DNA from: Corallococcus carmarthensis | GTDB taxonomy: Bacteria > Myxococcota > Myxococcia > Myxococcales > Myxococcaceae | Assembly (NCBI RefSeq): GCF_003611695.1 | Contig: NZ_RAWE01000001.1 | Location: 1-64,000 of the forward strand | Length of the DNA stretch: 64,000 nt | Direction of reading: 5' to 3' | Shown: positions 3,921 through 14,070 of the stretch, piece by piece | How positions within the stretch are numbered: the stretch's first letter is position 1 | Layout of the letters: each line of letters begins with the position of its first letter | Position numbers and translations under genes: made by a program | Notes under the pieces: model-generated | Databases searched by the model: none | What the model was told of the DNA's origin: nothing | The model's input: only the letters and a program-made list of their open reading frames with translations

Positions 3921-4027
3921 CCAGCCGCGTCCTCCCGGCGCGTCCCTCCGGGGAGCGCCGGGCTGGTCTGGTTGTTGCTCATGGGCGTCCCCGCCGCGGT
4001 TGCACAACCTGAAAGCGATTGAATCCC

Positions 4028-5458
4028 ATGGGACGACCCTCGAAGTTCAACCCCCTCGCCGCACTGTGTCTGGGCTTGATGGGCCTCACGGCCGGCGCGC
4101 AGACGCTGCCCGCCATCGCGCAGGTTCCGCCGAACCCTCCGCCCGCGCTGCCCGCGGGCACGAAGGTGACCTGTACCCAGGGCCCTGGCACCGGAGCCGC
4201 CGCCGCCACCTGTCCGGTGCTCAAGTTCGACGGCTACACGTACTGGGCGCTCAGCTACGGCGACAACCGCGTCTCCATGGACATCGCCGCGTATGACGCC
4301 GCGGGCAAGCTCGTGGCGCAGTGGGAGAAGCCGGGCGCCCGCTACGTGTACGGCATCACGGTGAACCCCGCGAACAAGACGGTGACCTTCGCCGGCCAGT
4401 CCGACGCGAAGATCACCATGACCTGGGACGAACTGGCGCCTCCGCCCGTGGTGGTCCAGGTTCCGCCGGCTGCTCCCTCCATCCCCGCCGGGATGAAGGT
4501 GACGTGCACGCAGGGCCCTGGCACCGGTGCGGCCTCCGCCACCTGCCCCGTCATCCAGTGGAAGGGCTACACGATCTGGGCCTTCAGCTACACGGACAAC
4601 CGCGTGAGCATGGGCATCGTCGTGTACGACGCCGCGGGCAAGGTCGTGGCGCAGTGGGAGAAGCCGGGCTCGCGCTACGTGTATGGCATCAGCGTGAACA
4701 CGACCGACCGGACGGTGACGTTCGCCGGCCAGTCGGACGCGAAGATCACCATGAAGTGGAGCGACCTGCTCCCGCCTCCGCTTCCTCCGGTGCCCCAGTG
4801 GGTGCTCCAGCCAGCTCCGCAGGGCGCGACGCTCAAGCAGATCTCCGTGGGCAGCGCCAACGCCGTCTGGGGACTCGACAGCGCGGGCTTCAACTGGAAG
4901 TGGACCGGCTCGGCCTGGCAGAAGATGGGCGGCACCGTGAGCAACATCTCCACGGCCTCGGACGGGACGCTGTGGGCCACCAATCCTCCGGACTCCCTGC
5001 GCGTGCTCAAGTGGGACCCTGCTGGCAACAAGTGGACCTGGAACATCCCCACCGGCATGAAGCAGGTCACCGCCGTCAACGCCAACACCGCGTGGGGCCT
5101 GGACAACGGCGGCTCGCTGTTCCAGTGGACCGGCTCCGCGTGGGAGAAGAAGGGCTGCTGCGTGAGCCAGCTCTCCGTCGGCTCGGACGGCGAGCTGTGG
5201 GCCACCAACCCGCCGGACTCCAACCGCGTCCTGCGCTGGGACGGCGCGAAGTGGACCTGGAACATCCCCGCCGGCATGACCTTCGTGTCCGTGGGCAGCG
5301 CGAAGAACATCTGGGCGCTGAATGCGTCGGATGGGGTCTTCCAGTGGACCGGCTCGGCCTGGAAGCAGGTCCCCGGCGCGCTGCGGAACATCTCCGCGGC
5401 CGGCGATGGCTCCGTGTGGGGCCTCAATGCCCAGGGGATGGTCTACAAGTGGCAGTGA
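4028..5458 (+). CDS. secreted tectonin-repeat (beta-propeller lectin-like) protein with duplicated N-terminal module
   Basis: A 476-residue exported protein: signal peptide at residues 1-24 (cleavage near TAGA-QT), no lipobox. Residues about 32-143 and 144-255 are two near-identical 112-residue modules (each with KVTCTQGPGTGAA, DNRVSM, VAQWEKPG, TVTFAGQSDAKITM), each holding two cysteines that could pair. Residues about 260-476 form six tectonin blades with alternating forms ISVGSANAVWGLDSAG / WKWTGSAW and DGTLWATNPPDS / WKWD. Tectonin propellers in other organisms bind carbohydrate or lipopolysaccharide, so a surface glycan-binding role is inferred. ATG 4028 gives a clean signal peptide; an in-frame TTG at 4019 is less likely. 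The DNA repeat is listed separately. Confidence 0.78.
   Translation: MGRPSKFNPLAALCLGLMGLTAGAQTLPAIAQVPPNPPPALPAGTKVTCTQGPGTGAAAATCPVLKFDGYTYWALSYGDNRVSMDIAAYDAAGKLVAQWEKPGARYVYGITVNPANKTVTFAGQSDAKITMTWDELAPPPVVVQVPPAAPSIPAGMKVTCTQGPGTGAASATCPVIQWKGYTIWAFSYTDNRVSMGIVVYDAAGKVVAQWEKPGSRYVYGISVNTTDRTVTFAGQSDAKITMKWSDLLPPPLPPVPQWVLQPAPQGATLKQISVGSANAVWGLDSAGFNWKWTGSAWQKMGGTVSNISTASDGTLWATNPPDSLRVLKWDPAGNKWTWNIPTGMKQVTAVNANTAWGLDNGGSLFQWTGSAWEKKGCCVSQLSVGSDGELWATNPPDSNRVLRWDGAKWTWNIPAGMTFVSVGSAKNIWALNASDGVFQWTGSAWKQVPGALRNISAAGDGSVWGLNAQGMVYKWQ
4121..4792 (+). repeat. 336-bp in-frame tandem duplication inside the tectonin gene
   Basis: Two copies with a period of exactly 336 bp (4121-4456 and 4457-4792), each starting with CAGGTTCCGCCG and encoding a 112-residue module. 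The copies are still similar at DNA level (for example the segments encoding TFAGQSDAKIT are almost identical), pointing to a recent intragenic duplication or continued gene conversion. Confidence 0.8.
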
Positions 5459-5599
5459 CGTAGGCCCGAAGGGCGGGGCAGGCGTGGAGCCGCGCCGTCC
5501 ACTCCCGGATTGCCCCAAGGGATGAAGCCCCTGCCCAAGCGCTCCCTCCGTCACCAGTTCCCTGGTGACGGACGAGGCGAGCGAACGGGAGGGGCGGGC

Positions 5600-7873
5600 A
5601 TGGCGGGACTGGGGGACGACTCACCGGCGGAGGGCGCGCCATCGCTGTTCGCCCGGCTGGCGGTGGGCGTGTTCCATCACCGGGGCCGGGTGTTGGTGGG
5701 CACGCTCCTGCTCCTGGCCGCGGCGGTGTGGGCGCTGCTGCGGGGCGGGAACCTCACCACCGGGACCATCGAGGGCATCGAATCCGCGCGGGCCGAGGCG
5801 CTCGCGCGGAATGCCGCCGCCGGGTCGAACGACCAGACCCTGGCGGTCATCTTCCATCACGATGACTGGACCACGGACGAGCCGCGCTTCGCCCAGGCGG
5901 TGACGTCCGTGCTGTCGCGCGTGGAGCGGCTGCCGGAGGTCGCGTCGGTGGTGTCTCCCATTGGCGCCCCCGAGGCCTTCCGCGTCCGCTTCGTGGCGAG
6001 GACGGGCCACGACCTGCTGGCGCTGGTGCGGCTCAAGGGCGGCGAACGCGAGGCCACGGCCGCGTTCCCTGCCGTGCGAGCGGCGCTGGAGGACGCGCGT
6101 CTCCAGACGACGCTCACCGGCAAGGTGGCCTTCCTGGCCGCGCTCAACGAGCTGCTGGAGCACGACCTGCTGCGCGCGGAGCTGCTCTCGTTCCCGCTGG
6201 CGCTGATTGTCTTGCTGTGGGTCTTCCGCACGGTGGTGGCGGCCATGCTGCCCCTGGTGGTGGGCGGGCTGGCGGTGCTCTGCGGCGTGGCGGGCGTGCT
6301 GCTCTTGTCGCACGTCACGAACATGGCCCAGTACACGCTCAACGTCGTGTCGCTCATCGGGCTGGGCGTGGCCATCGACTATTCGCTCTTCATCGTGAGC
6401 CGCTTCCGCGCGGAGCTCGCGCGGGGTTTGACGACGGAGCAGGCGCTGACGCGCACGTTGGACACCGCCGGGCGCGCGGTGGCGTTCTCGGGGCTGGCCG
6501 TCACGGTGGGGCTGGGGGGCCTGCTCTTCTTCCGGGGCTCGTATCTGAGCGCCATGGGACTGGGCGGCGCCCTGGTGGTGGCCTTCGCGGTCCTCTTCGC
6601 GCTCACCGTGCTGCCCGCGCTCCTTGCCTGGCTGGGGCCCCGGGTGGACAAGGGACGGCTGCCCTTCGCGCGCACGACGGGGCGCGGCGGCGTCTGGCAC
6701 GCGCTGGCCACCTGGGTGATGCGGCATCCCTGGTGGGTGCTGTTGCCGACGCTGACGTTGCTGCTCGCGATGGGGCTGCCGTTCCGGCGTCTGCAATTGG
6801 CGGCCACGGACATCACCGCGCTGCCCGAAGGCACCGAGGCACGCCAGGGCGCGGAGACCCTGGCCCGCCTGTTCCCCCGCGAGGCCGCCACCCGGGTGCT
6901 GGTGGCGGTGGAGTTCCCCGGGGGCAATCCCCTCACGCCGGAGCGCGCGGGCGCGTTGCACGACGCCAGCCGCCGGATCGCCGCGATGCCCGGCGTGGTC
7001 GGCGTGGAGAGCGCGGTGGACCTGGGCCCCGGCATGGATAGGGCGACCGTCCAGCGGATGGCCGCCGCGCCACCCCAGCTCCTTCCGCCGGAGCTTCAAG
7101 CCGCGCGGGCCGCGTACGTCACCGGCAACGTGGCCGTGATGCAGGTGCTGACGTCCTCCGCGCCCAGCAGCGTGGAGGCGAGGAACCTGGTCCGCGCGCT
7201 GCGCGAGGACCGCACGGTGGGTGACGGCCGGTGGCTGGTGGGAGGTCAGACCGCGACGGACGTGGACGCGGCGGCCTTCGTGAAACACCACACGCCCGCG
7301 GCGGTGGGCTTCGTGATGGGGATGACGTGCATCGTCCTCTTCGTGCTGCTGCGCTCCGTGGTGCTGCCGTTGAAGGCGCTCCTGATGAACCTGCTGTCGC
7401 TGTGCGGTTCGTTCGGGGCCCTGGTGTGGATCTTCCAGGAGGGCCACCTGCACCGGCTGCTGCGCTTCGAACCCGGGCCCATCGAACCGTCGCTGCCCAT
7501 CCTGTTGTTCTGCGCGCTGTTCGGCCTGTCCATGGACTACGAGGTGCTGCTGCTCAGCCGGATCCGCGAGGAGTGGCTGCGCACGGGCGACAACACCCAC
7601 GCGGTGGCCGAAGGGCTGGAGCGGACCGGCGGCCTCATCACCAGCGCGGCGGCCATCATGGTGGCCGTGTTCGCGGCCTTCACGCTGGCGTCGGTGGTGG
7701 TGGTGAAGGCGATGGGGCTGGGCATGGCCATCGCGGTCGCGCTGGATGCGACGCTGGTCCGGGTGCTCATCGTCCCCGCGATGATGCGCCTGATGGGGGA
7801 CTTCAACTGGTGGGGCCCCGGCCACTGGAGGCGCTCACAGCCGCGGGCGCAAGGGACGGAGGTGCGGCCATGA
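5600..7873 (+). CDS. MmpL/HpnN-like RND-family lipid transporter
   Basis: A 757-residue inner-membrane protein with the doubled architecture of MMPL transporters: an N-terminal membrane helix (about residues 20-42), a periplasmic domain (about 50-195), five helices, then a second copy of the same plan. The first half carries GLGVAIDYSLFIVSRFRAEL, the second half FGLSMDYEVLLLSRIREEW. These Asp-Tyr pairs are the proton-relay residues of MmpL proteins, which flip or export lipids using the proton gradient. ATG 5600 is chosen for the GGGAGGGG just upstream; in-frame starts at 5510 and 5522 lack a site. The stop overlaps the ATG of the next gene (ATGA at 7870). Its place beside sterol genes recalls HpnN in hopanoid clusters and the RND sterol transporter BstA of Methylococcus; cargo here is inferred. 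Confidence 0.88.
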   Translation: MAGLGDDSPAEGAPSLFARLAVGVFHHRGRVLVGTLLLLAAAVWALLRGGNLTTGTIEGIESARAEALARNAAAGSNDQTLAVIFHHDDWTTDEPRFAQAVTSVLSRVERLPEVASVVSPIGAPEAFRVRFVARTGHDLLALVRLKGGEREATAAFPAVRAALEDARLQTTLTGKVAFLAALNELLEHDLLRAELLSFPLALIVLLWVFRTVVAAMLPLVVGGLAVLCGVAGVLLLSHVTNMAQYTLNVVSLIGLGVAIDYSLFIVSRFRAELARGLTTEQALTRTLDTAGRAVAFSGLAVTVGLGGLLFFRGSYLSAMGLGGALVVAFAVLFALTVLPALLAWLGPRVDKGRLPFARTTGRGGVWHALATWVMRHPWWVLLPTLTLLLAMGLPFRRLQLAATDITALPEGTEARQGAETLARLFPREAATRVLVAVEFPGGNPLTPERAGALHDASRRIAAMPGVVGVESAVDLGPGMDRATVQRMAAAPPQLLPPELQAARAAYVTGNVAVMQVLTSSAPSSVEARNLVRALREDRTVGDGRWLVGGQTATDVDAAAFVKHHTPAAVGFVMGMTCIVLFVLLRSVVLPLKALLMNLLSLCGSFGALVWIFQEGHLHRLLRFEPGPIEPSLPILLFCALFGLSMDYEVLLLSRIREEWLRTGDNTHAVAEGLERTGGLITSAAAIMVAVFAAFTLASVVVVKAMGLGMAIAVALDATLVRVLIVPAMMRLMGDFNWWGPGHWRRSQPRAQGTEVRP

Positions 7874-9069
7874 ACGCGCGGACCCTCGGGTGGACGGCGG
7901 CGGGAGCGGCGGCGCTGGGGGTGCTGGTGCATGGACACCGGGAGCTGATGGCCGGACTGCGGCGGCGTGCCGCGCCGTCCGCGAGACGCTTCGAGCCTCC
8001 CTCCGTGACGATCATCCGGCCCATCCGGGGCCTGGACGTGGACGCGCGCGAGAACGTGCGCGCGCTGCTGGACCTGGACTATCCCGGCGAATGGGAGGTG
8101 CTCTTCGTCTTCGACAGCGAGGACGACCCCGCGTTCCTTCCCACCGGGGAGGAGGCGGCCTCACGTCCGACGCGCGCGAAGCGGGTGGAGCTGGTGGTCG
8201 CGGGCGAGCCTCCGGCGGGAATGACGGGCAAGCTCAACGCGATGCAGGTGGGCGTGGCCTGCTCCCGGTGCGACCTGCTGGCCTTCAGTGATTCGGACAC
8301 GCGGCCCACGCCCGGCGTCCTGACGGCGCTGGTGGGCGCGCTGCTGGAGGATGGCCAGACGGGCGCCACGTTCGCGCCCATCTACGCGGCGGCGGACGCG
8401 CCCCTGGCGGGCGACGTGGGCTACGGGCTGCTGGTGAATGCGTGGTACGGCGCGTCGGTCGCGTGCACGGCGGAACCGGATGGCGCGCTGCCCTTCATCA
8501 TGGGGCAGTTGATGGTCTTCCGCCGCCAGGCGCTCGCGGCCATCGGGGGCGTGGGCTGCGCCGCCGGGCAGTTCGTGGATGACATGTACCTGGGGCGCCG
8601 GCTGCACCAGTCCGGGTGGAAGAACCGCGTCGTCCATTCACCCCTGCGCGTCGTCACGGGGCACCTGGGGCTGGGCGCCTTCCTGCGCATCTTCCGGCGG
8701 TGGATCCTCTTCTCGGAGACAGGCCTCCCCGGCGCCTTCGCGCGGCCCCAATGGGTGCGAGGCGCGGTGAGCTGGCTGTCATGGGGGGCCCTGGCGGCGG
8801 CGGTGGCGCGCAGGGCCTGGGGCGGCGCGGTCCTGGCGGCGCTGCCCATCGGCTTCTCCGTGTGGAGCCAGCTGCGGCTCCAGCGGGCCTGTCACGGACC
8901 TCAAGTCGCGCCCCGGCACTACTGGGTGCCGGCGGTCCTTCCGTTGCTGGGTGCCGGCGTGGCGCTGTCCGCGCGGCTGTCGCGTGACGTGGACTGGCGC
9001 GGCCGGGGCTACCGGTTGGATGCGAAGGCGCGCCTGGGTGAAGCCCAGCCGGCCCGGGCCAGCGTGTAG
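7870..9069 (+). CDS. GT21 / HpnI-like membrane glycosyltransferase
   Basis: A 399-residue GT-A glycosyltransferase with an N-terminal membrane anchor (about residues 8-25) and C-terminal membrane helices (about 300-380). Seen motifs match the ceramide glucosyltransferase/HpnI group: the D1 region (SVTIIRPIRGLD), a DSDTR metal/sugar motif near residue 140, VDDMYLGRRL as the third aspartate site near 236, and the IFRRW form of (Q/R)XXRW near 275. Family members transfer a hexose or GlcNAc to ceramide or to bacteriohopanetetrol. Start overlaps the transporter stop, so the two are co-translated. The acceptor could be a sterol, a sphingolipid or another lipid; position next to the sterol genes favours an isoprenoid lipid, as inference. 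Its 3' end overlaps the oppositely oriented monooxygenase gene by 61 bp. Confidence 0.85.
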   Translation: MNARTLGWTAAGAAALGVLVHGHRELMAGLRRRAAPSARRFEPPSVTIIRPIRGLDVDARENVRALLDLDYPGEWEVLFVFDSEDDPAFLPTGEEAASRPTRAKRVELVVAGEPPAGMTGKLNAMQVGVACSRCDLLAFSDSDTRPTPGVLTALVGALLEDGQTGATFAPIYAAADAPLAGDVGYGLLVNAWYGASVACTAEPDGALPFIMGQLMVFRRQALAAIGGVGCAAGQFVDDMYLGRRLHQSGWKNRVVHSPLRVVTGHLGLGAFLRIFRRWILFSETGLPGAFARPQWVRGAVSWLSWGALAAAVARRAWGGAVLAALPIGFSVWSQLRLQRACHGPQVAPRHYWVPAVLPLLGAGVALSARLSRDVDWRGRGYRLDAKARLGEAQPARASV

Positions 9070-10418
9070 ACGGGACGGCGGACGCGACGATGCAGCCAGC
9101 TCCCCATCTGTTCCATCGCGCTCGCCACGGTGCCGCGCAAGGGCGGCCCGGCCGAGCGCAACAGCGGCGCGGCGGACCGCAGACTGCCCCCGGGGCCCCG
9201 CGGCGCGAGCATCGCGGCGAAGGCATGCGCGACGACGCGCAGGTACTCACGGGCCATCACCCGCATGCGGGGCTCCTCCGAGGAGAGCAGGGCCATGGAG
9301 GCGCGCGCGCCGCCAGGGCTGTGCTCCCAGTAGTGCAGCAGGCCCATGCGCAGCGCCCGCATGCCCTCGTCCTGTCCGGCGAAGGCGCTGTAGAGCGCGG
9401 ACGCGAGCGCGACGCGGGTGCGCTGCGCTGGCCTTCGCGCGTGCGCGTAATGCTCCAGCGCGCGGGCGACATTGCCTGGATGGCGTTGCAGCGATTCCTG
9501 GAGCGCGAGGGCATCGTGGAAGCACGACGCCATGCCGCTCGCCGTGAGCGGATGGCAGCACGCGGCGGCGTCGCCCACGAGCACGGCGCTCCCCATCCAG
9601 ACGGTCTCCGCCAGCCAGTCGTCGTTGGAGGCCATGCGCACCGCGGGCTGCTGCTCCAGCGCCCGCAGGACGGCCTGTCTCAGCCGCGAGGGCAGGGCGA
9701 GCAGCAGCTCCGGCCGGTCCCGCAGCGTCTGGACCGTGCTGCCCAGCGGCAGGTCCACCATCACGCGCGCCACTCCCGGCTGGATGGCATAGGCCAGCGC
9801 ATGCACGGCGCCTCCCACGAACTGGTGGCCGTGGTCGGGGTGGGTCAGGCAGTCGCTGTCCACGGTCACGCCCAGCATGGTGGACAGGCGCGTGTGGTGC
9901 TCCGCGATGCCCAGCATCCGCCGCACGGGCGACGCGCGTCCGTCCGCGGCCACCAGCAGCCGCGCCCGCACGGAGTGCTCGGTGCCCGCGTGCGTGTAGC
10001 TCAGGCGCACGCCGTGCTCGCAGTTGTGCTCCACGGCCGTCACGCGGGCCCGGGTGCGCACGGTGACGCCGCGCCGCCGCGACACCGACTCCAGCAGGGG
10101 CACGGTGAGGGCCGCGTGTTCCAGCGACAACCCGGTGACACCGCGACCGTAGGGCAGGACGAGCGTGCGGGCAGGGGCATGGAAACGCACCGCGAAGCCG
10201 CGCACGGGCTGGGCCGTCCACCCATCCACGACGCTCCCGAAGCCCAGCGCCCGCAGGTCCCGCACCCCGGCCGGGTGGAGCAGCTCGCCCGCGAGCTGCT
10301 TGTGCCGGTCCACGCCCGCGTCCAGCAGCAGGACCGACAGCCCCAGCTCGGAGAGCGCCGCCGCCACCGCGCAGCCCGCGGGCCCACCTCCAGCTATCAC
10401 CACCTCGGCGTCCTCCAC
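9009..10418 (-). CDS. squalene monooxygenase (epoxidase)-like FAD monooxygenase
   Basis: A 469-residue group-A flavin monooxygenase. The FAD motif GGGPAG is at residues 10-15, the ADGRASPVRR segment at 158-167, and the second FAD motif GDAAACCHPLTASGM at 282-296, close to the GDA-x-x-x-RHPLT-x-GGM form of squalene epoxidases. Squalene monooxygenase makes 2,3-oxidosqualene, the substrate of the cyclase encoded at 11551. A geranylgeranyl-reductase-type enzyme is the main alternative, but the divergent squalene synthase/oxidosqualene cyclase operon 86 bp away favours the epoxidase role. The start is GTG at 10418 with GGAGG four bases upstream (10423-10427). It is transcribed away from those genes, and its 3' end overlaps the glycosyltransferase gene tail to tail. 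Confidence 0.78.
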   Translation of the reverse strand: MEDAEVVIAGGGPAGCAVAAALSELGLSVLLLDAGVDRHKQLAGELLHPAGVRDLRALGFGSVVDGWTAQPVRGFAVRFHAPARTLVLPYGRGVTGLSLEHAALTVPLLESVSRRRGVTVRTRARVTAVEHNCEHGVRLSYTHAGTEHSVRARLLVAADGRASPVRRMLGIAEHHTRLSTMLGVTVDSDCLTHPDHGHQFVGGAVHALAYAIQPGVARVMVDLPLGSTVQTLRDRPELLLALPSRLRQAVLRALEQQPAVRMASNDDWLAETVWMGSAVLVGDAAACCHPLTASGMASCFHDALALQESLQRHPGNVARALEHYAHARRPAQRTRVALASALYSAFAGQDEGMRALRMGLLHYWEHSPGGARASMALLSSEEPRMRVMAREYLRVVAHAFAAMLAPRGPGGSLRSAAPLLRSAGPPLRGTVASAMEQMGSWLHRRVRRPVYTLARAGWASPRRAFASNR

Positions 10419-10504
10419 GTGGCCTCCGCCCGGTCCCCAGACTCCATGTCTGGTATTGACGAATTAGCCATTGATGCGCGTTACCGCACGCAGAGGAGGC
10501 AGGC

Positions 10505-11551
10505 ATGAAAGAACAGGGAGCGTCATTCTGTCGCACGCAACTGCCCCGGGTCTCCCGGACGTTCGCGCTCAACATCCCGCTGTTGCCCGGCCCCTTGGAC
10601 CTGTCGGTGACGGTCGCCTACCTGCTGTGCCGCATCGCGGACACGCTGGAGGACGAGGCCGCCGGAGCGCACCCGGGTGCATTGCTCGACGAACTGGGGG
10701 GCCTGGTGTCGCTGGAGCCGGGCTGGGAGGCCCGTGCCCGCTCCTTCGCGCGGAGGGCGCGGCTCGCCCTGCGGGACGAGGCCCCCGCCGCGGAAGCCGA
10801 GCTGGTCCTGGAGACCCTGCTGGTGCTTGAAACCCTGGCGTCGCTTCCCTCCTGGGTCCACCCGCCCATCGCGCGGTGTGTGCGCACGATGACCGGCGGG
10901 ATGAACCAGATGCAGCGGATGCACGGGGGGAGCGGACAGGTCATGGGGCTGCCCGACCTCCAGGCGACGTTCATGTATTGCTATTACGTGGCCGGCGTCG
11001 TGGGCGAGATGCTGACCGGCCTCTTCATCGCCAGCTCACCCCGGGTTGCCTGGCGTGAGAAAAGGCTCATGTCGCGGGCGCCTGCCTTTGGCCGGGCCCT
11101 GCAGCTCACCAACATCCTGAAGGACGTGCGCGAGGACCTGGACCGGGGATGCTGCTGGCTGCCCAGGGACCGCATGGCCGCGCATGGCCTCACGCCCGCC
11201 ACGCTGGTCCTGCCCTCCTTGCGCTCGCGGGCGGTGGCGCTGATGGACGAGCTGGTGGCGGTGGCGCGCCGGGAGCTGGACGTCGCGCTCGAATACTCGC
11301 TGGCCCTGCCCGCGGAAGAGCCCGGCCTGCGGCTGTTCTGCCTCTACCCGCTCTTCTTCGCGGTCGCGACGCTCAATGCGATAGAGGGCAACCCCGCGGT
11401 GTTCGACCCCGAGCCGGTGAAGATGGGCCGGGAAGCGGTGGCGACGCTGATGCGGCTCACGCAGGAGCGCGTGTCATCGGATGAAGCGCTGCGGGCGCTC
11501 TACGCCGGCTGCTCGCGCGCGTCCCGTGGCGGCATGGAGGCCTGGACCTGA
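10505..11551 (+). CDS. squalene synthase (farnesyl-diphosphate farnesyltransferase)
   Basis: A 348-residue head-to-head prenyl synthase. The first aspartate-rich motif DTLEDE is at residues 46-51 within a CRIADTLEDE context, the second is DVRED at 207-211 (NILKDVREDLDRG). SRTFALNIPLLP near residue 17 is the conserved N-terminal segment. The single-gene, eukaryote-like form (FDFT1/Erg9 type) fits better than the HpnC/HpnD pair because DTLEDE and the long C-terminus are kept. It would condense two farnesyl diphosphates to squalene at the membrane. An AGAGGAGG ribosome site (10492-10499) precedes the ATG. Its stop overlaps the start of the cyclase gene (TGATG at 11549), so the two enzymes are translationally coupled. 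Confidence 0.9.
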   Translation: MKEQGASFCRTQLPRVSRTFALNIPLLPGPLDLSVTVAYLLCRIADTLEDEAAGAHPGALLDELGGLVSLEPGWEARARSFARRARLALRDEAPAAEAELVLETLLVLETLASLPSWVHPPIARCVRTMTGGMNQMQRMHGGSGQVMGLPDLQATFMYCYYVAGVVGEMLTGLFIASSPRVAWREKRLMSRAPAFGRALQLTNILKDVREDLDRGCCWLPRDRMAAHGLTPATLVLPSLRSRAVALMDELVAVARRELDVALEYSLALPAEEPGLRLFCLYPLFFAVATLNAIEGNPAVFDPEPVKMGREAVATLMRLTQERVSSDEALRALYAGCSRASRGGMEAWT

Positions 11552-13512
11552 TGCGGCCGGCCCGCGACGTGCTGGCCCGGACGCAGGAGGCGGATGGCTC
11601 CTGGAAGGGCGACTACAGCGGCCCGCTCTTCCTGGGCCCGGTGTACGTGGCCGGGCTGTACGTGATGGGGCGCACGCCGGACGCGCCTGTCCGCGACGGG
11701 ATGGTCGCCCACATGCGTGCCCATCAGAACGCGGATGGCGGCTGGGGGCTGGACGTGGAGTCGCCCAGCCTCGTCTTCACGTCGGTGCTCAACTACGTCG
11801 CGCAGCGGTTGCTGGGCGTTGGCGCGGACGACCCGGACCTCCTCCGCGCGCGGGCGTGGTTCCTTCCGCGGGGAGGTCCACTGGGCAGCGCGTCCTGGGG
11901 GAAGTTCGTCCTCGCCCTGCTGGGGCTCTACGAATACGAGGGCCTGGCGCCCGTGCCTCCCGAACTCTGGCTGTTGCCGCGAGCGCTGCCCTTCCATCCC
12001 TCCCGGCTCTGGTGCCACTGCCGCATGGTGTACCTGCCCATGGGCTGGCTTTGTGGCCGCCGGGCCCGCGCCACGGAGACACCGCTGCTGGCCGAGCTGC
12101 GGCGCGAGCTCTACCCCCAGCCCTACGCGGACGTGGACTGGAAGGCGGCGCGCGGACGGGTGGCCGGGACCGACGCCTACAGCCCCCACGGTCTGGGTTT
12201 GCGCGCCGTGCACCGCGTGCTGGGCCTGTACGAGCGATTCCACTCGAAGCGGCTGCGGGCTCGCGCGCTGGACGAAGCCCTGGCGTTGATTCGCGGGGAG
12301 GACGAGGCGACGCACTTCGTCTGCATCGGGCCCATCAACAAGGTGCTCGACATGGTGGTGTGGCACGTGGCGCGGCCGGAGGGCCCGGAGGTGCGCGCGC
12401 ACCTGGAGCGCCTGCCGGACTACCTCCAGCACACCCGCGAGGGCATCACGTTCAACGGCTACAACTCCTCCCAGCTCTGGGACACCGCCTTCGCGGTGCA
12501 GGCGCTGGTGGCCTCCGGAGAATCCGTCTGGGCGCGGGACACGCTGGCGCGAGCGGGCCGCTTCCTGGAGGCGCAGCAGGTGCTGGAGGATTCACCGGAC
12601 GCCGCGCGCCACCACCGGCATCCGAGCCGGGGAGGGTGGCCCTTCAGCACCCGCGCGCACGGCTGGCCCATCAGCGATTGCACGGCGGAGGCGTTGAAGG
12701 CGTGTCTGTTGTTGGAACCGCTCGGGCTCAATCGCGTGCCACGCGAACGCCTGGGACAGGCCGTGGCGTTCATCCTGTCATTGCAGAACCGGGACGGCGG
12801 CTGGGCCACCTATGAGCGGCAGCGGGGACCGCACTGGCTGGAGCGGTTCAATCCCTCGGACGTCTTCGCCGGCATCATGGTGGACCCCAGCTACGTGGAG
12901 TGCACGTCGGCCTGCATCCAGGCGCTGGCCGCGTGGCGCGAGGCGTCGCCGGCGGCACCCGTGGCGCGGGCCATCGCGCGGGGCGCGGACTTCCTGCGCC
13001 GCCAGCAGCGCCCGGACGGAAGCTGGGAGGGTTCCTGGGGCGTGTGCTTCAGCTATGGCACGTGGTTCGGCGTCACCGGCCTGCTGGCCGCCGGAGCAGG
13101 GGCCGCGGACCCCGCGCTGCGCAAGGCGGCCACGTTCCTGAAAGCCCACCAGCGCGCGGACGGCTCCTGGAGTGAAACCATCCAGGGCTGCCGCGAGCGC
13201 CGCTGGGTGGAGGGGCGTACGGGCCACGCGGTGACGACGTCCTGGGCCGTGATGTCGCTGGTGGCCGCGGGCGACGCGAACTCCGACGCCACGCGCCGGG
13301 GCGTGGCGTGGCTGCGCGCGAGGCAGGACGCGGAGGGCCAGTGGCCACGAGAGCCCCTGGCCGGGGTGTTCAGCCGCACCTGCGCCATCCACTACGACGC
13401 CTACCTGCGCATCTTCCCGCTGTGGGCGCTGTCGCTCGCGGAGCGACAGGCCGGAGTCTTCACGGCGCGCGAAGGCTCTGTGACCCCAGGTAGTCCATCT
13501 TGCCCAGGTTGA
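11551..13512 (+). CDS. oxidosqualene cyclase, cycloartenol-synthase type
   Basis: A 653-residue triterpene cyclase with several QW-type repeats (ADGSWKGDYSG, ADGGWGLD, RDGGWATYE, PDGSWEGSWG, ADGSWSETIQG). The catalytic motif is DCTAE (residues 376-380), as in oxidosqualene cyclases, not the DXDD of squalene-hopene cyclases. The product-determining positions of cycloartenol synthase (Tyr410, His477, Ile481 in Arabidopsis CAS1; Thr/Cys/Val in human lanosterol synthase) correspond here to Tyr304 (GYNSSQLWDT), His370 and Ile374 (HGWPISDCTAE). All three match cycloartenol synthase, so cycloartenol is the predicted product. ATG 11551 overlaps the squalene synthase stop. The 3' end overlaps a convergent DUF1993 gene by 53 bp. 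The protein is shorter than plant enzymes, lacking part of the N-terminal region. Confidence 0.92.
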   Translation: MRPARDVLARTQEADGSWKGDYSGPLFLGPVYVAGLYVMGRTPDAPVRDGMVAHMRAHQNADGGWGLDVESPSLVFTSVLNYVAQRLLGVGADDPDLLRARAWFLPRGGPLGSASWGKFVLALLGLYEYEGLAPVPPELWLLPRALPFHPSRLWCHCRMVYLPMGWLCGRRARATETPLLAELRRELYPQPYADVDWKAARGRVAGTDAYSPHGLGLRAVHRVLGLYERFHSKRLRARALDEALALIRGEDEATHFVCIGPINKVLDMVVWHVARPEGPEVRAHLERLPDYLQHTREGITFNGYNSSQLWDTAFAVQALVASGESVWARDTLARAGRFLEAQQVLEDSPDAARHHRHPSRGGWPFSTRAHGWPISDCTAEALKACLLLEPLGLNRVPRERLGQAVAFILSLQNRDGGWATYERQRGPHWLERFNPSDVFAGIMVDPSYVECTSACIQALAAWREASPAAPVARAIARGADFLRRQQRPDGSWEGSWGVCFSYGTWFGVTGLLAAGAGAADPALRKAATFLKAHQRADGSWSETIQGCRERRWVEGRTGHAVTTSWAVMSLVAAGDANSDATRRGVAWLRARQDAEGQWPREPLAGVFSRTCAIHYDAYLRIFPLWALSLAERQAGVFTAREGSVTPGSPSCPG

Positions 13513-13966
13513 CGCCGTTGTGACGCAGGAGCGCGTACGCGTGGGTGACGTGGAAGTAGAAGTTCGGGAGCGCGTTCTCCAGGAAGTAGTCCGCGCCGCT
13601 CATCACCTGGCCCTCCCAGCGGGGGTGGGTGACCACGCGCCCGGCCGCGCCCTCGAAGTCCTTCGCCGTGAAGGTGTCCAGGTACGTGAGGGTGGACTGG
13701 ACGCGGGCGCTGAGCTCCTCCAGCGTCTGCTCCGTGTCCGGGTTCGACGGCGCGGCCTTGCCTGTCAATCGTGAGGCCGCCAGCTTCACGGCGTCACAGC
13801 CGATCTGCACCTGCCGCACGAAGGGGAGCTGGTCCGGCGCCAGCCGGAAGCCCAGGTAGATGTTCGGGTCGAAGGACTTCGCCTTGGCGTGGGCCGCGGC
13901 CGTCTCCAACCACTTGTTGAGCTGCCCGAGCTGCTTCTTCATCTGGGAAAAGGTCTCGAAGTACAT
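13460..13966 (-). CDS. DUF1993 domain protein
   Basis: A 168-residue cytosolic protein matching the DUF1993 family: helical throughout, with the C-terminal NALPNFYFHVTHAYALLRHNGVN segment (the family's conserved FH-x-x-x-AY-x-x-LR-x-NGV ending) and an internal GAADYF/SGADYFLE-like helix. The family resembles DinB-like four-helix proteins; no reaction is established. Start MYFETFSQM at 13966 is chosen because family members begin about here; an upstream in-frame TTG at 14008 is possible. No convincing ribosome site was seen. The 3' end overlaps the end of the convergent oxidosqualene cyclase gene, which leaves no room for a separate terminator. Confidence 0.75.
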   Translation of the reverse strand: MYFETFSQMKKQLGQLNKWLETAAAHAKAKSFDPNIYLGFRLAPDQLPFVRQVQIGCDAVKLAASRLTGKAAPSNPDTEQTLEELSARVQSTLTYLDTFTAKDFEGAAGRVVTHPRWEGQVMSGADYFLENALPNFYFHVTHAYALLRHNGVNLGKMDYLGSQSLRAP

Positions 13967-14070
13967 GGGCGCGCAAGCTAACGGGGCAGTGCTTGCCGCG
14001 CGACCCAATCCGGGGCGTCCGGATCCGAAGAATCCAGACGCCCCGCGTCACGCCGTGGTCACGCGTGGCG

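Follow-up and report, generated by a model that had tools for sequence, protein, structure and literature searches.

The first 64,000 nucleotides of Corallococcus carmarthensis contig NZ_RAWE01000001.1 (positions 1 to 64,000; hereafter "the window") contain a compact group of five genes that, judged by sequence comparison, probably forms a sterol cassette. Three of the genes encode a squalene synthase-like protein (SQS), a squalene epoxidase-like monooxygenase (SE) and an oxidosqualene cyclase (OSC) of the cycloartenol-synthase type. The other two encode an MMPL-family transporter, which would belong to the same functional unit, and a membrane glycosyltransferase (GT), which would also be part of the unit in the lineage of Corallococcus, Myxococcus and Citreicoccus. 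The cyclase core adds one more member to a published clade: cycloartenol-type cyclases are already known across the Myxococcaceae, where they have been inherited vertically and are accompanied by almost no downstream enzymes (PMC12004948). In the literature that we searched, we found no description of such a group of five genes, in which a transporter is linked to the sterol enzymes and a GT is specific to one lineage. What matters here is the linked transporter-GT pair, rather than the cyclase.

Association of the transporter and glycosyltransferase genes with the cyclase

Each gene was searched for in 96 Myxococcaceae genomes. The cyclase is present in 47, and the MMPL transporter in 35 of these 47 but in none of the 49 genomes that lack the cyclase. 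All 28 genomes with the GT are cyclase carriers. In the three genera in which cyclase presence is mixed, every carrier has the transporter (12/12) and no non-carrier does (0/26). As a negative control we used a neighbouring gene for an HpnE-like oxidase, which all 27 genomes of one genus (g19) contain, irrespective of the cyclase. The oxidase fails where the transporter and GT pass, and the co-occurrence test therefore separates partners from neighbours.

The genes are also physically linked. For 26 of the 35 transporter genes, the cyclase is on the same contig and no more than 5.5 kb away. In Corallococcus, Myxococcus, Citreicoccus and several genomes from metagenomes, both the transporter and the GT adjoin the sterol genes. 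The Corallococcus order is transporter, GT, SE (reverse strand), SQS and OSC, and the transporter-GT pair is likewise upstream in Myxococcus. In Stigmatella-type and Cystobacter-type loci (L106 and L108), the transporter gene follows the cyclase gene on the same strand, with gaps of ~36 bp and ~11 bp, respectively; genomes of these two types have the transporter but no GT homologue. SE and SQS have exchanged positions in L012, the transporter lies beside the cyclase in other gene orders in other Myxococcota families (L160 and L159), and an Akkermansiaceae locus (L071) has a linked cyclase and transporter, the latter 53% identical to that of the window. Within the genus, all five cassette genes are under purifying selection (ratios of nonsynonymous to synonymous substitution rates of about 0.03–0.12 by YN00). 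Each of the 16 genomes of the genus has an open cyclase reading frame which, together with purifying selection, excludes chance for this gene.

The transporter matches PF03176 with 267.9 bits. Its best score against a family model, 317.9 bits, is for the MmpL3 trehalose monomycolate exporter (NF052608; equivalog cut-off 1400), and it aligns to solved MmpL3 with an E-value of 6e-79. Matches to HpnN are weak (34–68 bits; 34 bits for NF052374, well below its cut-off of 1100). Two Asp-Tyr pairs in transmembrane helices, D290-Y291 and D676-Y677, are invariant in 11 sequences, and we take them to be equivalent to the proton relay of MmpL3. The GT has a family 21 domain (PF13506, 76.7 bits against a cut-off of 21.7), and its motifs DSD (141–143), D237-D238 and R277-W278 are invariant in 11 sequences. 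By sequence, its closest solved relative is ceramide glucosyltransferase, and a good AlphaFold model (pLDDT 89.5) matches membrane GT2 enzymes. It has the GT21 domain, membrane GT2 fold and catalytic aspartates in common with ceramide glucosyltransferase and with HpnI, the bacteriohopanetetrol glycosyltransferase. Unlike HpnI, it scores below the HpnI cut-off (111 of 310 bits for TIGR03472), is linked to a sterol cyclase, and comes from a genome that has no hopene cyclase.

Linkage of an RND-superfamily protein to a bacterial sterol cyclase has a precedent in BstA/BstB/BstC of Methylococcus, where the protein likewise falls in the MMPL Pfam family (PMC10942540). BstA resembles HpnN, whereas the window transporter is nearest to MmpL3 (318 bits), a difference judged through the HpnN scores and the flanks of methanotroph cyclases. 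Within flanks of up to 10 kb, no transporter of the window type was found around methanotroph cyclases. Distant RND-superfamily proteins are encoded near cyclases of Verrucomicrobiota, Bacteroidota and Methylothermaceae (L037, L040, L044, L049 and L052; 24–47 bits to the MMPL profile); these may be due to chance.

Several observations weigh against a dedicated cassette. The family-wide association of cyclase and transporter has a Fisher p of 2.8e-16, a value that takes no account of relatedness; better evidence for a partnership comes from the mixed genera and the rearrangements. Twelve Myxococcaceae cyclase carriers have no transporter of this type, and among 23 genomes reached by way of more distant cyclase loci, only three have it. 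Transporter homologues with 52–57% identity are present without a detected cyclase in five Myxococcota genomes (G122, G151, G152, G153 and G155), and in G151, a 98% complete genome, transporter and GT genes are side by side (L156). Hence, neither family is strictly bound to sterols. The lipid substrate of the G151 pair would be informative. It could be argued from these cyclase-free relatives, and from the fact that other lipids are the substrates of MmpL3 and ceramide glucosyltransferase, that the transporter and GT are passengers in a single inherited or transferred block and act on lipids unrelated to the sterol. We consider this unlikely: the linkage survives several gene orders and extends to another phylum, and in the 96 family genomes the cyclase accompanies both genes wherever they occur, which is not true of the neighbouring oxidase.

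The cyclase and its probable product

The assignment of the cyclase to the sterol branch is clear. It scores 889.1 bits against the oxidosqualene cyclase model TIGR03463 (cut-off 851), covering positions 4–633 of 634, and only 275.5 bits against the squalene-hopene cyclase model TIGR01507 (cut-off 431.1). Its best solved relative is human lanosterol synthase (1w6k; 48% identity over 617 residues), to which it matches ~450 bits better than to hopene cyclase. As the preliminary description had noted, the protein has DCTAE in place of DXDD, a motif found nowhere in the cyclase; D376 of DCTAE aligns to the catalytic D455 of the human enzyme. In a tree of 55 cyclases, it groups with Corallococcus sequences (SH-aLRT 98–100) inside the myxobacterial cycloartenol-synthase clade, with Stigmatella-type sequences close by, Cystobacter-type sequences in a neighbouring group, and hopene cyclase far outside. 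This upholds the placement among sterol cyclases, for which a tree had been proposed as a check. The Pfam domains PF13243 and PF13249 are shared with squalene-hopene cyclases, but the motifs, the TIGR01507 score, the closer match to lanosterol synthase and the tree refute that identity; the chance of a squalene-hopene cyclase, or of some other class II terpene cyclase, is negligible. With no further match to the SQHop cyclase model in the genome, this is its only triterpene cyclase. Recent transfer from plants is unsupported: the tree places the protein with bacterial cyclases and separates it from the plant enzyme by a long branch, a weak comparison given that only one plant sequence was included.

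Product specificity was predicted from three positions. The preliminary description equated Tyr304, His370 and Ile374 with Tyr410, His477 and Ile481 of Arabidopsis CAS1; in our alignment, these residues correspond to T381, C449 and V453 of human lanosterol synthase, which upholds the equivalence. Outside this triad, all the catalytic and aromatic active-site residues that we looked up are kept (among them Y98, W192, W230, H232, W387, F444, D455, C456, Y503, C533, W581, F696 and Y704 in human numbering). The Y/H/I combination is found in all Corallococcus, Myxococcus, Stigmatella-type and Cystobacter-type sequences, whereas in methanotroph cyclases Y is followed by N or Q and then V. Tyr is thus shared with methanotroph enzymes that carry the lanosterol-type Val453, and has no diagnostic value in bacteria. 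The weight initially given to Tyr304 was overstated; the informative pair is His and Ile. Wei 2016 found Ile/Val453 to be the only diagnostic position in bacteria, with Ile or Val matching cycloartenol or lanosterol in every bacterial strain tested (PMC4919349).

Together, these sequence features support a cycloartenol-type cyclase at the level of the enzyme. Few residues set product specificity, and lanosterol has been reported from some Cystobacter strains (PMC4919349). Moreover, a related clade near the cycloartenol synthases (L115 and L160) has lanosterol-type Gln/Val. Lanosterol or parkeol as the main product is nevertheless improbable, given the record for Ile453 and the fact that His370 is likewise of the cycloartenol type. 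The sister cyclases of L115 and L160 hint at a product switch in their own right, and L160 keeps SE, SQS and the transporter despite its Gln/Val cyclase. In one genome, the intact cyclase is accompanied by a partial copy (L099; G011:C41:19400-20080) with Y/N/T at the three positions, which looks duplicated and decayed.

The two upstream enzymes are consistent with this assignment. SQS matches SQS_PSY (PF00494) with 164 bits and has both aspartate-rich motifs, but scores 87.7 bits against the squalene synthase model TIGR01559 (cut-off 286.75); for this reason we label it squalene synthase-like. SE scores 92.6 bits against PF08491 (cut-off 20.1), has the flavin adenine dinucleotide (FAD)-binding motifs, and has squalene monooxygenase 6c6n as its best solved relative. 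A separate genome (G058; contigs C6, C15 and C28) has three squalene-epoxidase homologues, 65–72% identical, and a single cyclase. From family and motifs, and for the cyclase from the kept active-site residues, SQS would convert farnesyl diphosphate to squalene, SE would convert squalene to 2,3-oxidosqualene, and the cyclase would convert 2,3-oxidosqualene to cycloartenol.

Layout of the locus and neighbouring genes

The SE, SQS and cyclase genes are where the preliminary description had placed them, with all three reading frames intact (Table 1). SE is transcribed divergently from SQS, and the SQS stop and cyclase start overlap as TGATG. That description had confined the locus to 9009–13512; the three enzyme genes are indeed there, but the transporter and GT genes were missed, and the block reaches left to about 5510. 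The GT start overlaps the transporter stop as ATGA, and the GT gene is convergent with SE, overlapping it by 61 bp. A scan of the SE/SQS intergenic region for sigma-70 promoters gave no match.

Table 1. Coordinates of the predicted cassette genes and the SE/SQS intergenic region in the window.
Feature	Position	Strand	Remarks
MMPL-family (RND superfamily) transporter, MmpL3-like	5510..7873	+	true start may be the ATG near 5600
GT21/HpnI-like membrane glycosyltransferase (GT)	7870..9069	+	
Squalene epoxidase-like FAD monooxygenase (SE)	9009..10418	-	GGGPAG, DG and GD motifs
Divergent intergenic region SE/SQS, 86 bp	10419..10504	.	presumed control region
Squalene synthase-like (SQS)	10505..11551	+	SQS_PSY; DTLED at 46-50, DVRED at 207-211
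Oxidosqualene cyclase (OSC), cycloartenol-synthase type	11551..13512	+	Y304, H370, I374, D376CTAE

The window has a G+C content of ~70% and belongs to a genome of 10.8 Mb. Among named relatives, the nearest are from Corallococcus (C. exercitus, 89%; C. interemptor, 89%; Corallococcus sp. AS-1-6, 90%). Directly upstream of the transporter is a gene for a Tectonin-domain repeat protein (4019–5458, + strand), which recurs in L012 but is missing from most of the other loci searched. The HpnE-like oxidase used as a control is an HpnE/phytoene-desaturase-like amine oxidase (1–1272, + strand), cut by the contig start. We rejected it as a pathway member since it is equally common in cyclase-negative genomes; although in some Corallococcus it lies directly next to the cyclase, it is probably a bystander. 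An adjoining gene for a sigma-70 family (extracytoplasmic function-type) factor (1382–2350, + strand) travels with the oxidase in several Corallococcus loci. On the other side, the 3ʹ end of a DUF1993 gene (13460–14008, - strand) is antisense to the 3ʹ end of the cyclase gene, with an overlap of 53 bp; the full C-terminal tail of the cyclase aligned mainly in loci that also have a DUF1993 neighbour.

Possible fate of the sterol in Corallococcus

The closest described loci are those of Stigmatella aurantiaca (STAUR_5418/5420) and Cystobacter fuscus (D187_003104/003106; Bode 2003; Wei 2016). They share SE, SQS and OSC with the window. In the Stigmatella-type and Cystobacter-type genomes, the Y/H/I triad is the same and the transporter gene comes directly after the cyclase gene, but it is thus downstream rather than upstream, and there is no GT homologue. 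The cyclase of G037, a Stigmatella-type genome that we take to be S. aurantiaca DW4/3-1, is 68% identical to that of the window, which bears out the comparison with Stigmatella drawn earlier. Closer still is G002, presumably C. coralloides DSM 2259, with a 91% identical cyclase and essentially the same locus, differing by ordinary species divergence only. The absence of downstream sterol enzymes nearby, also noted in the preliminary description, agrees with their reported absence from the whole family, except for a C-24 reductase in Cystobacter (PMC12004948). A search of the window's own genome with the sterol reductase profile PF01222 gave no match, but neither did the control, making this result uninformative.

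What does the organism do with the product of the cyclase? According to Wei 2016, cycloartenol has been reported in Stigmatella and Cystobacter, and the C. coralloides DSM 2259 locus has been published as COCOR_01775 / COCOR_01777, with the key SE and OSC residues intact (PMC4919349). C. coralloides is listed as sterol-negative by gas chromatography-mass spectrometry (GC-MS): both Bode 2003 and Wei 2016 detected squalene but no sterol-like molecule (PMC4919349). Hence, unlike Stigmatella and Cystobacter, Corallococcus is not a genus from which free cycloartenol has been obtained. This counts against the earlier proposal that the organism makes cycloartenol, if a free end product is meant. The only lipid data for the genus run contrary to production of cycloartenol at the level of the organism. 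A degenerate cyclase does not account for the missing sterol: there is no loss in the active site, the frame is open in every genome of the genus, and selection is purifying.

One explanation lies in the two additional genes. Linkage and family suggest that the most likely role of the transporter is to carry the sterol, or something derived from it, from the inner membrane towards the outer membrane or cell surface. On the same grounds, the GT most likely adds a sugar to the lipid in the Corallococcus, Myxococcus and Citreicoccus lineage; this is the least certain step. As a precedent, a plant glucosylceramide synthase reportedly forms sterol glucoside (Hillig 2003). We tentatively propose, as a possibility short of an even chance, that Corallococcus and its GT-carrying relatives make cycloartenol, glycosylate it with the GT21/HpnI-like enzyme, and export the conjugate through a dedicated MmpL3-type transporter. 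Glycosylation and export of cycloartenol in Corallococcus may cause the sterol to be missed by GC-MS of free sterols. There are precedents for hidden sterols: those of Calothrix were at first visible only after acid hydrolysis, and conjugates occur in E. salina (PMC10202945). The two genera with free cycloartenol have no GT, and the genus reported to be without free sterol has one. The distribution of the GT thus fits the published sterol phenotypes, but with three genera this is suggestive only.

The main alternative is that a working cycloartenol pathway is not expressed under laboratory conditions, such that growing Corallococcus contains neither free nor conjugated sterol. Wei 2016 offers this as one option after the squalene-only result for C. 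coralloides (PMC4919349), and purifying selection is compatible with use only in certain conditions. We regard a silent locus as a serious contender, though still not as the probable answer. It gives no role to the linked GT, which within the family is limited to cyclase carriers. Furthermore, the passages of Wei 2016 that we consulted describe GC-MS of acetylated extracts in which ions of free sterols were examined, and mention no hydrolysis step that would release conjugates (PMC4919349).

In the 96 family genomes, the transporter never occurs apart from the cyclase, and the GT is present in the genus with the "missing" sterol and absent from Stigmatella-type and Cystobacter-type genomes. 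These two genes offer a concrete and cheap test of conjugation and export. If the proposal is correct, glycosylation and export would account for the reported lack of free sterol in Corallococcus despite a complete pathway maintained by selection, and the locus would be the first identified cassette for sterol conjugation and export in a bacterium that synthesizes sterols itself.

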